A DNA stretch of 64,000 nt from Methanoregulaceae archaeon (lineage in GTDB: Bacteria; Armatimonadota; Fimbriimonadia; Fimbriimonadales; Fimbriimonadaceae), in NCBI GenBank assembly GCA_020850325.1, contig JADZEW010000026.1, positions 62,001 through 126,000 of the forward strand, given 5' to 3'. Made by a program: the position numbers and the translations under genes. The notes beneath the pieces were generated by a model. That model made no database searches and was not told the origin of the DNA. It saw only the letters and a list, made by a program, of their open reading frames with translations. Positions 49,596 through 56,411 of this stretch are shown here, piece after piece. Positions within the stretch are counted from its first letter, which is position 1; the number at the start of each line of letters is the position of its first letter.

Positions 49596-49682
49596 GGGCC
49601 CTACTATGGCTGAAACCTGGTCCGTTCTGCGCTTCAGCCGATCCGCTGGAGCACCCTACGTGCACCATCAGGTATAATGGCT

Positions 49683-49800
49683 TCTGTCTAGTCTGGCAAG
49701 CATTGTCAGAACGGGGGAACCACATCTGTGGGGTGAATCCATTCCGGAAGAGTTGCACCGAACTCTAACCCGTCAGCTAACCTCGGAGACTGAGCCATCA
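49683..49800 (+). promoter_or_regulatory. Cyclic di-AMP (ydaO/yuaA) riboswitch 1
   Basis: The conserved blocks of the ydaO aptamer are present in order: 'AACGGGGGAACC', 'GGGGTGAATCC', 'CCGAACTC', 'CCGTCAGCTAACCTCG' with the closing AGTCT/AGACT pair. A perfect TATAAT at 49673-49678 lies just upstream. After the aptamer a hairpin (GAGC, TGCCG with CGGCA, GCTC, at 49802-49825) may form the expression platform. It controls the 117-residue gene at 49854, whose Shine-Dalgarno GGAGGTGAT is unusually strong. Confidence 0.9.
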
Positions 49801-49853
49801 TGAGCGTGCCGCCTTCGGCAAGCTCCATGACCGTAACGCATGGAGGTGATTGT

Positions 49854-50207
49854 ATGCGTTTACATAATACGGCTGAGGAGACGTTTGTCACTACTCTCGT
49901 TGAGGGTACCAAGCTTCTTGTCGCCAATTCTAAGTTTACGACTCCCGAAAAGATCGCAGCCTTGAAGAAAGCGATCGCGGGACATGCCCAACAAGCGGTG
50001 TTGCTTCGCGCGCAACGGAATGCGGTAGGCGACACCGAGATGATGAAGAAGATCGAGCGATTGATCAAGCTTCGCGAGGAAGCGGCGGCCTACTTGAGCG
50101 CGACCGCGAAGTGGCTGACCAACCGGGATCGGAGCCTCCAGACGCTCGATGATCTGCCGCGGATGTTTGCCGTCCCCAAGTGGCAAAACGACCAACTCTG
50201 GGCTTAG
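49854..50207 (+). CDS. c-di-AMP-riboswitch-controlled small helical protein (paralogue 1)
   Basis: 117 residues from the ATG at 49854, 4 bases after GGAGGTGAT. The protein is nearly all helical with a conserved C-terminal tail 'PRMFAVPKWQ'. It is homologous to 53345-53704: both have TE..FV..LV.GT near the start, 'KIERL.(K/R)LREEAA.YL....WL', and 'L...PRMF..P.W'. No signal peptide, no known domain. Control by c-di-AMP, which governs potassium balance and cell-wall turgor in other bacteria, is the main functional clue. Confidence 0.75.
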   Translation: MRLHNTAEETFVTTLVEGTKLLVANSKFTTPEKIAALKKAIAGHAQQAVLLRAQRNAVGDTEMMKKIERLIKLREEAAAYLSATAKWLTNRDRSLQTLDDLPRMFAVPKWQNDQLWA

Positions 50208-50219
50208 CCCAACGCCTCG

Positions 50220-50247
50220 GGCCCGCAACGACGCGGGCCTTCCTTTT
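50220..50247 (+). terminator. Rho-independent terminator after paralogue 1
   Basis: GGCCCGC (50220-50226) pairs with GCGGGCC (50233-50239), followed by TTCCTTTT. Confidence 0.9.
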
Positions 50248-53130: not shown

Positions 53131-53171
53131 ATGACGACTCCTGCACATTGTTCATCTATTTCGGGTATAAT

Positions 53172-53297
53172 CTTTGCAACGTTGAATCCGGCTATGCCGG
53201 AACGGGGGAACCAAACCTTAGGGGTAAATCCAGCTTAACGCTGGACGGGCATCTTTCGGCCCGAACCCGGCAGCTAACCTCGTAGACTCGTCGAAGG
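53172..53297 (+). promoter_or_regulatory. Cyclic di-AMP (ydaO/yuaA) riboswitch 2
   Basis: Conserved aptamer blocks 'AACGGGGGAACC', 'GGGGTAAATCC', 'CCCGAACCCGG' and 'CAGCTAACCTCGTAGAC' are in order. A perfect TATAAT (53166-53171) precedes. A GAGGGCG/CGTCCTC hairpin follows near 53299-53317 and may be the switching platform before the GGGAGGTGG Shine-Dalgarno. Downstream is the paralogous small protein at 53345. Confidence 0.9.
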
Positions 53298-53344
53298 AGA
53301 GGGCGTTTGTCGTCCTCATGAACTCTAGCAACCGGGAGGTGGCT

Positions 53345-53704
53345 ATGAATCTGATCAATGAGACGGAGCGCAACTTCGTGAATGCGCTTGTTGATGGTAC
53401 GCAAAATGTCTTAGTGACCTCACGTCTATCCAAGAGCGAGAAGCTGGACACCCTACAGCGATCAATCCGCGTCCACGCCCACTATGCGAAGCGGTTGAGG
53501 CTCGCGCTGGCAAGGAGTGATGCGTCTGTGGAGCGAAGCAAGATCGAAAGACTCTTGCGACTTCGAGAAGCAGCCGTGAACTACCTTGTCTCGATGGCGA
53601 GGTGGCTGGTCTCACAGGAGCAGCACGAAGGCAGCCTTAGGCAGCGGCCGAGAATGTTTTCGGAGCCTCGCTGGTCTTTACCCAGCGAGCCTAAGACTCA
53701 GTAG
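53345..53704 (+). CDS. c-di-AMP-riboswitch-controlled small helical protein (paralogue 2)
   Basis: 119 residues from the ATG at 53345, after a strong GGGAGGTGG Shine-Dalgarno. It is clearly homologous to 49854-50207 (TE..FVNALVDGT; IERLLRLREAAVNYLV; PRMFSEPRW) but diverged. The same riboswitch plus gene arrangement occurs twice, so it is a real regulatory module. The downstream neighbour on the opposite strand is a cation/proton antiporter, which fits osmotic signalling but is only context. Confidence 0.75.
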   Translation: MNLINETERNFVNALVDGTQNVLVTSRLSKSEKLDTLQRSIRVHAHYAKRLRLALARSDASVERSKIERLLRLREAAVNYLVSMARWLVSQEQHEGSLRQRPRMFSEPRWSLPSEPKTQ

Positions 53705-53773: not shown

Positions 53774-54979
53774 CTAAGCATCACTCGGAGCAGGCCTTCC
53801 GATCAATCCGAGACGCCTCATCAAGGGTGAGATCGTCATCCCTTGCACGATAACGCTAAAGGCCACCACTCCGAAAGCTGCTGCCGTCAACTCGCTCAGA
53901 TAAGGGAAGTCTTTTCTCAGACCGAGTACGAGGGCCAGCGAAAGAGCCCCTTTCAGGCCACCCCACACCATTACGTGCTGATGCCGCATCTCAACGCGAT
54001 ATCGGCTGCCCCTGAAGAGCGCCAGAAGCCCGTAGACGCCGATCGCGCGAGAGAGCAAAGCCACCAAGATTGCGGCCACGACCACGACGACCTCTCTGGG
54101 GATGGACTGACCCAGAGCAACCTCGCGGACGCCGATGAGGATGAAGATGATGGAGTTCGAAACGAACGCCACAAACTCCCAAAACGCGTGGACCGCCACC
54201 CGCCCAGCCTCTGTAATGGCGCCAAAGTGCCCCAAGTTGCCGATCATCAGACCTGCGACCACCACCGCGAGAACGCCTGAACAATGGAGCATGTCCGCGA
54301 GGAGGAAAGCGCCAAAGGCCGTCACCGTCGTCAGGAGGAGTTCGACCAGATGCTCGGTAGTCCTTCCTGCGAGATAGAGTGCTGTACCCGCAACCGCAGC
54401 ACCGCAGACTATGCCTCCACCGACCTCGCGAACCAGCGTTAGAGCCACTTGGCCGACACTGAGCTGGGTCCCTGATGCGAAGAGCACGGCGATCCCAAAC
54501 ATGACGGCAGCGGCACCATCGTTCAGTAGGCTTTCCGATTCTACAAAGAGCTTCAACTTGCCGCCGACTCCCGTCTCCTTAAACAGGGCCAGGACGGAGA
54601 CCGGATCGGTTGCCGCGATCAGACTTCCAAACACAAGAGCCACCGGAAACGGCCATCCCACCAACCAACTGAGCGCAGCCGCAGTCAGGAATCCCGCGGC
54701 GATTACGCCCCCTGACGCGAGCACAACCACCGGCACCAGCGTTACCTTCAGCTCTCGCCAACGGAGGCTGAACGCCGCTTCGAACACGAGCGGCGGGAGG
54801 AGTGCCTTAAAGATCAGATCCTTGGTGAGCTCGAATCCGTCGAGAACGCCAAAGATGGCGAGCGCGGCGCCGGCGACAACGAGGCCAACCGTATAGGGAA
54901 GCCTTACGCGACGAGCAAGCAGCGCAACGACGGCCGCCACACAAAGAAGAAGTTCGAAACCCTCGATAGAAAACGACAC
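53774..54979 (-). CDS. CPA1-family cation/proton antiporter
   Basis: 401 residues, about twelve membrane helices. The CPA1 signature 'AATDPVSVLALFKETG' (Asp-Pro) and the essential acidic residues in 'ESESLLNDGAAAVMFG' are present. Exchanges Na+ or K+ for H+ at the cytoplasmic membrane. No C-terminal regulatory domain is attached. The start is GTG at 54979, overlapping the stop of the DUF389 gene by one base, so they are translated together. Confidence 0.9.
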   Translation of the reverse strand: MSFSIEGFELLLCVAAVVALLARRVRLPYTVGLVVAGAALAIFGVLDGFELTKDLIFKALLPPLVFEAAFSLRWRELKVTLVPVVVLASGGVIAAGFLTAAALSWLVGWPFPVALVFGSLIAATDPVSVLALFKETGVGGKLKLFVESESLLNDGAAAVMFGIAVLFASGTQLSVGQVALTLVREVGGGIVCGAAVAGTALYLAGRTTEHLVELLLTTVTAFGAFLLADMLHCSGVLAVVVAGLMIGNLGHFGAITEAGRVAVHAFWEFVAFVSNSIIFILIGVREVALGQSIPREVVVVVAAILVALLSRAIGVYGLLALFRGSRYRVEMRHQHVMVWGGLKGALSLALVLGLRKDFPYLSELTAAAFGVVAFSVIVQGMTISPLMRRLGLIGRPAPSDA

Positions 54980-56157
54980 TACGGAGTGCCTCCAGTACGG
55001 GTCGCCGGCTCAGTGCTCTCGCCATTTGAACGATGGTCCGTAGATTCAGGCGACGTCAAGTCGATGCTTGGGGTCACGATTTCGGGATCAACCTGCGGGA
55101 CATTAGGGGTGGACTTCACGTCGTCGACGGGCAGAGCATCGGGCTCAATAACATGAAGATAACCCTCTGCGGTGGCTTCTTTGGTGAGGAGCGATCGAAC
55201 GTGTAACTCGATCTTCTTTCCGCGGCGTGGTTCAAGTCGGGCTTGAAGCTGACTCACCTGCTCAGGCGTGATCGAGTTCGGAACGCGCACGACCGCAATG
55301 ACAATGTCCGCGTCATAGGACTTCACGAAACGCGATTCGGCAAGAAACGCACCTGGGATCCGCTCGAGTCCCATCCGTAACCGTTGACTGACTGAGCTTT
55401 CGAACTGCTGCTGCTCGAGCGTGGATGAAAGTTGGAAGTAGAGGAAGATCGTCAATCCAAGCAGGATTCCGCCGTCGATGGCCAGCGTCCTCAGATACAC
55501 CCGATCGTCCTTCTGACGCCGCGTTATGTTATGAAATCCGAAGGCGTAAAGGACGGCTGACGAAGCACACTGGATGGCGACCAGATTCGTGAAGAAGAGG
55601 AGAAACGCGCCACCTGCCTGTGGTAACAAGCCCCGCGATAGACAGATTCCGGAGCTTGCAAGCGGGGGCACCAGGGCCGTCGAGATGGCCACGCCGACAA
55701 GACCGACGCTCACGCGAGGGGAAACGGTCGCATAGGCTCCGGCGGCTCCTCCTGCAAGTGCAATCACAAGGTCCAGAAGGTTCGGCTTCGTGCGTGACAG
55801 GATCTCCGAGGCAATCGCAATATCTGGGTGAATCCTGCCCACGACCAACCCGATGCCAACGACCATCGCGGCTCCGACGATTTCTGCCTCGATCGCCCTC
55901 CGCAGGAGCCGAGTATTCCCGTCGACGATCGCCAATGCAAGGCCCATGATGGGCCCCAGGAGCATGGCGATGATCATCGCTCCAATCACCACCGCGGTAC
56001 TGTTGGCGAGCAGGCCATAGGCTGCCACGATCGTCGCCAGGGCATTCATGACCAAGAAGTGCCCACTCAACCAAGCGTTCGAAGCAATCGACTTGCGAAC
56101 TTTAGCTTGATGTTCGCTACGCTCCTCCGCGACAGACAGAGACGACTCATTCACCAT
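54979..56157 (-). CDS. DUF389 (TIGR00341-type) membrane protein
   Basis: 392 residues from the ATG at 56157. Several membrane helices with the DUF389 signature 'NSTAVVIGAMIIAMLLGPIMG', plus cytoplasmic 'ILSRTKPNLLDLVIALAGGAAGAY' region and a C-terminal soluble tail of about 150 residues. DUF389 proteins are of unknown function and occur near ion transporters. Here the gene is coupled to the CPA1 antiporter, which supports a joint ion-homeostasis role. Confidence 0.85.
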   Translation of the reverse strand: MVNESSLSVAEERSEHQAKVRKSIASNAWLSGHFLVMNALATIVAAYGLLANSTAVVIGAMIIAMLLGPIMGLALAIVDGNTRLLRRAIEAEIVGAAMVVGIGLVVGRIHPDIAIASEILSRTKPNLLDLVIALAGGAAGAYATVSPRVSVGLVGVAISTALVPPLASSGICLSRGLLPQAGGAFLLFFTNLVAIQCASSAVLYAFGFHNITRRQKDDRVYLRTLAIDGGILLGLTIFLYFQLSSTLEQQQFESSVSQRLRMGLERIPGAFLAESRFVKSYDADIVIAVVRVPNSITPEQVSQLQARLEPRRGKKIELHVRSLLTKEATAEGYLHVIEPDALPVDDVKSTPNVPQVDPEIVTPSIDLTSPESTDHRSNGESTEPATRTGGTP

Positions 56158-56223
56158 CAACTCACCACTATAGCTAACCCGAGCCGCCAGGCGAAACGAG
56201 CGCGTCACAACTAGACGAGAGCT

Positions 56224-56411
56224 TGACCACAAGACTGACGCCATGGGTCAATGGTTTTAGGGCGAGCAGCGCCATGAAAGGTCGGTGATCGGAGGCCATG
56301 GGTTCGATGATAACCGTCACACTGGGATGGGACCCAACCGTGTCTCGGGGAGACAAAGATGAAATCGATCTCCTTAACCGGCTCATCCGAGCTGAAGCTA
56401 AAAGGTCGTGT
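56224..56411 (-). pseudogene. Remnant of an EEP-family (endonuclease/exonuclease/phosphatase) gene
   Basis: On the minus strand, one frame gives 'FSFSSDEPVKEIDFIFVSP', then a second frame gives 'VTVIIEPMASDHRPFMALL'. Together they match the C-terminus of the intact gene at 58930-60540 ('FTYSAAQPEKEIDFVFFWP' and 'TRVVDEKLASDHRPVFTEL'). A frameshift lies between the two parts and the N-terminal domain is missing. So this is a decayed copy about 2.5 kb from the functional gene. Confidence 0.75.

Follow-up and report, generated by a model that had tools for sequence, protein, structure and literature searches.

The 64,000-nt window analysed here, part of contig JADZEW010000026.1 of a Fimbriimonadaceae genome (G000), contains a full-length c-di-AMP riboswitch aptamer followed on the same strand by a gene for an undescribed 117-residue protein, and this association is conserved in related genomes. 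In our preferred reading, to which we assign a probability of about 0.7 as a whole, the locus (copy 1) is a single-gene transcription unit with its own putative promoter and terminator, its riboswitch would act on translation, and its protein would serve ion homeostasis. The features of copy 1, and those of a second aptamer-gene pair in the window (copy 2) and its neighbours, are listed in Table 1.

Table 1. Features of the two riboswitch-gene loci in the window (positions counted from the first nucleotide of the window).
Feature	Position	Strand	Basis
Probable promoter −10 element TATAAT, overlapping the 5' edge of the copy 1 aptamer	49673..49678	+	Sequence
c-di-AMP riboswitch aptamer (RF00379), full length, copy 1	49675..49806	+	cmscan, 63.7 bits
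UAACCUC aptamer strand, partial complement of the Shine-Dalgarno; candidate switching strand	49778..49784	+	Sequence; wider riboswitch set
Leader hairpin, copy 1	49798..49830	+	Folding and sister-genome comparison
Shine-Dalgarno GGAGGT, strong	49842..49847	+	Sequence
Gene for 117-aa three-helix protein (family A, copy 1)	49854..50207	+	ORF, homologues, dN/dS, AlphaFold
Terminator-like hairpin followed by TCCTTTT	50219..50240	+	Sequence scan
Probable −10 element TATAAT, copy 2	53166..53171	+	Promoter scan match
c-di-AMP riboswitch aptamer, copy 2	53170..53303	+	cmscan, 86.8 bits
Gene for 119-aa paralogue (family A, copy 2)	53345..53704	+	35% identity to copy 1 protein
CPA1-type Na+/H+ exchanger gene, convergent with copy 2	53774..54979	−	Pfam PF00999, E 5.6e-61
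DUF389 membrane protein gene, same strand as the exchanger gene and abutting it	54979..56244	−	Pfam PF04087, E 1.8e-34

The copy 1 aptamer was matched by Rfam cmscan over the complete RF00379 model (positions 1–134 of 134; E 2e-12), above the gathering score of 38 bits, and its conserved blocks CGGGGGAACC, GGGGUGAAUCC, and AACCCGUCAGCUAACCUCG were all intact, in agreement with the ydaO class assigned to it by the first-pass annotation. By covariance model it is a genuine RF00379 c-di-AMP riboswitch, for which ligand binding is predicted. As judged by gene presence, a c-di-AMP synthase domain (DAC, PF02457) is encoded in 83 of the 85 Fimbriimonadaceae genomes, including G000 (C13:20077-20430, E 5e-39). 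A promoter scan of copy 1 found no good −35 element. The aptamer end is separated from the ORF start by a leader of 47 nt, and no terminator was found between aptamer and start codon. The inner stem of the leader hairpin is formed by UGCCG and CGGCA (49807-49811 and 49816-49820), and its outer stem contains the anti-Shine-Dalgarno sequence CUCCAUG (49823-49829). The Shine-Dalgarno, which had been described as near-perfect, lies 6 nt upstream of the ORF start. An alternative in-frame ATG at 49800, which would give 135 aa, was discarded since it falls inside the 3' flank of the aptamer and relatives give no support for it. The likely transcript agrees with the first-pass coordinates, 49683-50207, and the unit is flanked by genes for an alpha/beta hydrolase and an alpha-L-fucosidase.

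The copy 1 aptamer-gene unit was also found in a sister genome (G057, a Fimbriimonadaceae MAG; JANJUB010000113.1), where the encoded protein is 92% identical. Between the two genomes, the aptamer, the leader and the ORF were kept while the DNA 5' of the promoter had diverged, and comparison of the ORFs gave a dN of 0.040 and a dS of 0.234 (dN/dS 0.17). In the leader, the stem UGCCG/CGGCA is changed to UGCCC/GGGCA in G057, a double change that keeps the pairing. Since conservation of the unit ends beyond the promoter and dN is low relative to dS, copy 1 is not a chance arrangement; on this comparative evidence its ORF is a real gene under purifying selection.

The first-pass annotation had suggested looking for homologues of the protein and for their linkage to ydaO riboswitches. 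A search of 291 Armatimonadota genomes recovered 13 members of this protein family (family A) in 10 genomes, all of them Fimbriimonadaceae, and a search with a family A sub-alignment returned two loci. Ten of the 13 members lie directly 3' of a full aptamer scoring above the gathering threshold, with 35–47 nt between aptamer and start. The remaining three comprise a member in G017 with a decayed aptamer (35 bits) and a broken frame, one in G005 (C76) in which a truncated aptamer is fused to a truncated gene through a deletion or an assembly fault, and a second copy in G010 that has no aptamer. Aptamer and gene thus form a conserved pair, both members of which are degraded in G017. An annotation artefact lacking conservation, one of two outcomes that had been named as fatal to the earlier proposal, was ruled out by the 13 members and by the dN/dS ratio.

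AlphaFold models of copies 1 and 2 (pLDDT 84 and 82, respectively) agreed with each other and consisted of three helices (residues 6–24, 30–57, and 61 onwards) and a low-confidence tail. No transmembrane stretch was found, and the family A protein is predicted to be soluble and three-helical. Comparison of copies 1 and 2 with Pfam, NCBIfam, PHROGs, and PADLOC gave no credible assignment; a FixL match to the window copies (E 0.00085) was dismissed, as its score of 18 bits lay far below the cut-off, which is 850. A search of PDB sequences with the family A profile gave no match, and the fold search of the PDB with the family A models retrieved only generic helical bundles, none of them significant; a UvsY match with a Z of 9.1 fell inside the noise level given for models of this helical kind, and the matches listed included neither Acb2 nor Tad1. 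As first described, then, the gene encodes a helical protein with no known domain, and by sequence conservation family A is an undescribed protein family, present in several species and with no database assignment. A C-terminal PFME[YF]SS motif is conserved in many family A relatives (for example at L183, L185, and L186), with a similar one in cluster 12, and is absent from both window copies.

A wider survey yielded 118 RF00379 aptamer matches, one of them below the gathering score, in 74 of the 85 Fimbriimonadaceae genomes; five are in the 3.5-Mb genome G000, and two of these are in the window. Fifty of the 118 riboswitches precede at least one of four groups of small proteins (A, B, D, and E), where riboswitches of this class usually serve transporters. 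Group A comprises the window copies and their distant kin (hhalign E 1e-10 to cluster 12 and 2e-6 to the G049 member). Group B proteins have about 85–117 aa and group D proteins about 90 aa, while group E, the Tad1 homologue, was found in 63 of the 85 genomes and lies behind 16 riboswitches. In a neighbouring family of the same order, the group B profile matched at 7 of the 14 loci read, and elsewhere in the phylum, reading of the sequences showed genes of other kinds behind the aptamers (opine-dehydrogenase-like, STAS, DapB-like, and MscS-like). As far as sampled, group A would be specific to the Fimbriimonadaceae, and group B would be specific to their order. Profile comparison gave no more than a hint of shared ancestry between families A and B (E 0.012 and probability 3.6 in hhalign), which we do not claim. 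Within G000, the group B representative (L001; C35:79636-79772) encodes a small helical protein of 97 aa behind a c-di-AMP riboswitch, and its short leader hairpin varies across species with the pairing kept. At L003 (C8:183070-183198, minus strand), the aptamer directly precedes a chromosomal Tad1-like gene (113 aa; 182704-183021 and on), whose homology to Tad1 was established by matches to 8kbb (E 9.5e-10 over profile positions 21–95) and phrog_2428 (E 3.2e-18). With the two peptide patterns used, no member of this family was found in viral contigs. At L003 a cyclic dinucleotide would control a resident gene related to a phage nucleotide sponge.

Two copies had originally been taken to define a module. 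The second pair of aptamer and paralogue does exist; copy 2 is missing from G057, as is the DUF389 gene seen near it, and what these loci actually form is a regulon that spans the Fimbriimonadaceae and takes in several families of small proteins. The first-pass annotation was right on the riboswitch and on the undescribed gene, and too narrow on the module.

Most of the other 68 riboswitches precede no gene and are followed instead by a leader in which a conserved CACCUCC(U), identical to the 16S anti-Shine-Dalgarno core, lies just 5' of a terminator. ACCUCC was present within 330 nt at 50 of the 68 non-coding loci, with 6 expected, and at two of the 50 gene-linked loci. No consistent cis partner of CACCUCC was found, and at the eight non-coding loci tried no Rfam family matched this RNA. 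The RNA of this class may be either a riboswitch-controlled small RNA or an unusual attenuator. There is about one member per genome, that of G000 being L004 (C26:7450-7589, minus strand), outside the window. The hisB gene lies 3' of the riboswitch at 25 loci (L010, for example), some 240–380 nt away where this was read, which may reflect synteny or control; it was discarded as the controlled gene because it is downstream at just 25 of the 68 loci.

Since the leader of copy 1 has no terminator and the aptamer-to-start spacing in family A is short, the simplest interpretation is that control acts on translation: c-di-AMP binding would alter the accessibility of the ribosome-binding site, and the messenger would thereby set the rate of translation. 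As to direction, a point that the first-pass annotation did not address, in the wider regulon the UAACCUC strand of the ligand-free aptamer would pair with GAGGU(U) of the ribosome-binding site, and ligand binding would lock this strand within the aptamer and leave the Shine-Dalgarno free, making c-di-AMP an ON signal. Such pairing appeared in unconstrained folding of several group B and related leaders, with a pairing index of 1.19 for the group B gene of G000. The opposite arrangement, an OFF switch in which c-di-AMP binding hides the ribosome-binding site and the protein is made at low c-di-AMP and thus at low K+ or turgor, is a serious contender, at somewhat less than even odds. The characterised precedents considered here repress: the kdp riboswitch of Bacillus thuringiensis does so through termination (PMC6488665), and the nlpC riboswitch of Corynebacterium glutamicum, the one case among them reported as probably translational, does so at translation (PMC9960051). 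CUCCAUG in the copy 1 leader is also complementary to the Shine-Dalgarno, but in all folds computed it sits in the covarying hairpin, and across the wider class of gene-linked riboswitches the Shine-Dalgarno is free when ligand is bound. The U that allows the aptamer to pair with the Shine-Dalgarno was, moreover, favoured in gene-linked over non-coding aptamers of the same genome in 18 genomes against 3 (p 0.0015, a value that ignores descent; each kind of aptamer may simply be an old lineage of its own). Thermodynamic folding of the two window copies gave a probability of 0.00 for pairing between aptamer and Shine-Dalgarno; forcing the aptamer fold left the accessibility of the copy 1 Shine-Dalgarno unchanged, and no switch was seen in silico. 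The anatomy of the regulon leans to ON and published precedent to OFF, and for copy 1 we slightly favour ON.

A possible partner of family A was indicated by its gene neighbours, which are also what points to ion transport and so bears on the salt and turgor tolerance raised in the first-pass annotation. An operon of exchanger and DUF389 genes adjoins copy 2 in G000 (53774-56244), and DUF389 also adjoins the group A genes of G005 (C76), G011, and G017 and the distant member in G049; where the sequence past DUF389 was read, it held the exchanger. Among the 118 listed riboswitch loci alone, such a neighbour was found at 4 of the 14 of group A and at none of the other 104 (p ~1.3e-4), and the close DUF389 type occurs in 5 of the 10 genomes that have family A and in 3 of the 75 that lack it (p 3.7e-4); both p values ignore phylogenetic relatedness. 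The exchanger neighbour is absent at copy 1 and at about half of the family A members. The Na+/H+ exchanger-DUF389 membrane system is the best candidate for a partner, a tentative assignment, and from this linkage we propose that the family A protein would be a small protein of the cytosol with a regulatory or accessory part in ion and osmotic homeostasis. A target in the cell envelope, or another one unrelated to ion transport, seems unlikely: c-di-AMP riboswitches control cell-wall hydrolases elsewhere (PMC9960051) and the family A member of G065 adjoins cell-wall synthesis genes (read from sequence), but no envelope neighbour recurs family-wide. Less probable still would be a sponge function, with small helical proteins binding or buffering c-di-AMP and a rise in c-di-AMP raising the sponge. 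The Tad1 homologue directly behind the C8:183070-183198 riboswitch of the same genome, and the 16 riboswitches with Tad1-like genes, fit this idea, as does the Acb2 protomer, likewise built from three antiparallel helices, two long and one short (PMC12043709). Such an outline, a helical hairpin with a short helix added, is very common among proteins, however, and family A has no convincing fold match and matches the Tad1-like family neither in sequence nor by profile (profile comparison E 0.45).

A regulatory role in ion homeostasis remains our proposal for family A. More speculatively, and at long odds, the Fimbriimonadales might possess a c-di-AMP regulon of small proteins rather than transporters, in which ON-type translational riboswitches would drive helical regulators (A, B, and D) and a Tad1-like sponge giving direct feedback on c-di-AMP, together with a one-per-genome riboswitch-linked RNA bearing an anti-Shine-Dalgarno motif. 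These loci point to an unrecognised branch of the c-di-AMP regulon, in which a familiar messenger and its sensor are coupled to protein families not described before, across a whole bacterial order, and the function of proteins such as those of family A becomes testable because the riboswitch names the signal. If the switches were ON-type, or if the Tad1-like partner buffered c-di-AMP, the regulon would follow a logic new to second-messenger control.

Copy 1 resembles known c-di-AMP riboswitches of the ydaO/yuaA leader class (RF00379) in its full-length aptamer, conserved blocks, same-strand gene 3' of it, and a host with a c-di-AMP synthase domain; it differs from the usual ones in preceding a gene for an undescribed small helical protein, in its short leader without a terminator, and possibly in its ON logic. 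With the nlpC riboswitch of C. glutamicum (PMC9960051) it shares presumed translational control by c-di-AMP, although there a cell-wall peptidase is repressed and here the presumed target is a small protein. To the Tad1 and Acb2 sponges it is connected by the Tad1 homologue that another G000 riboswitch of this class precedes and by the outline of short helix and helical hairpin that family A has in common with Acb2, whereas family A itself has no detectable sequence relation or specific fold relation to either sponge.
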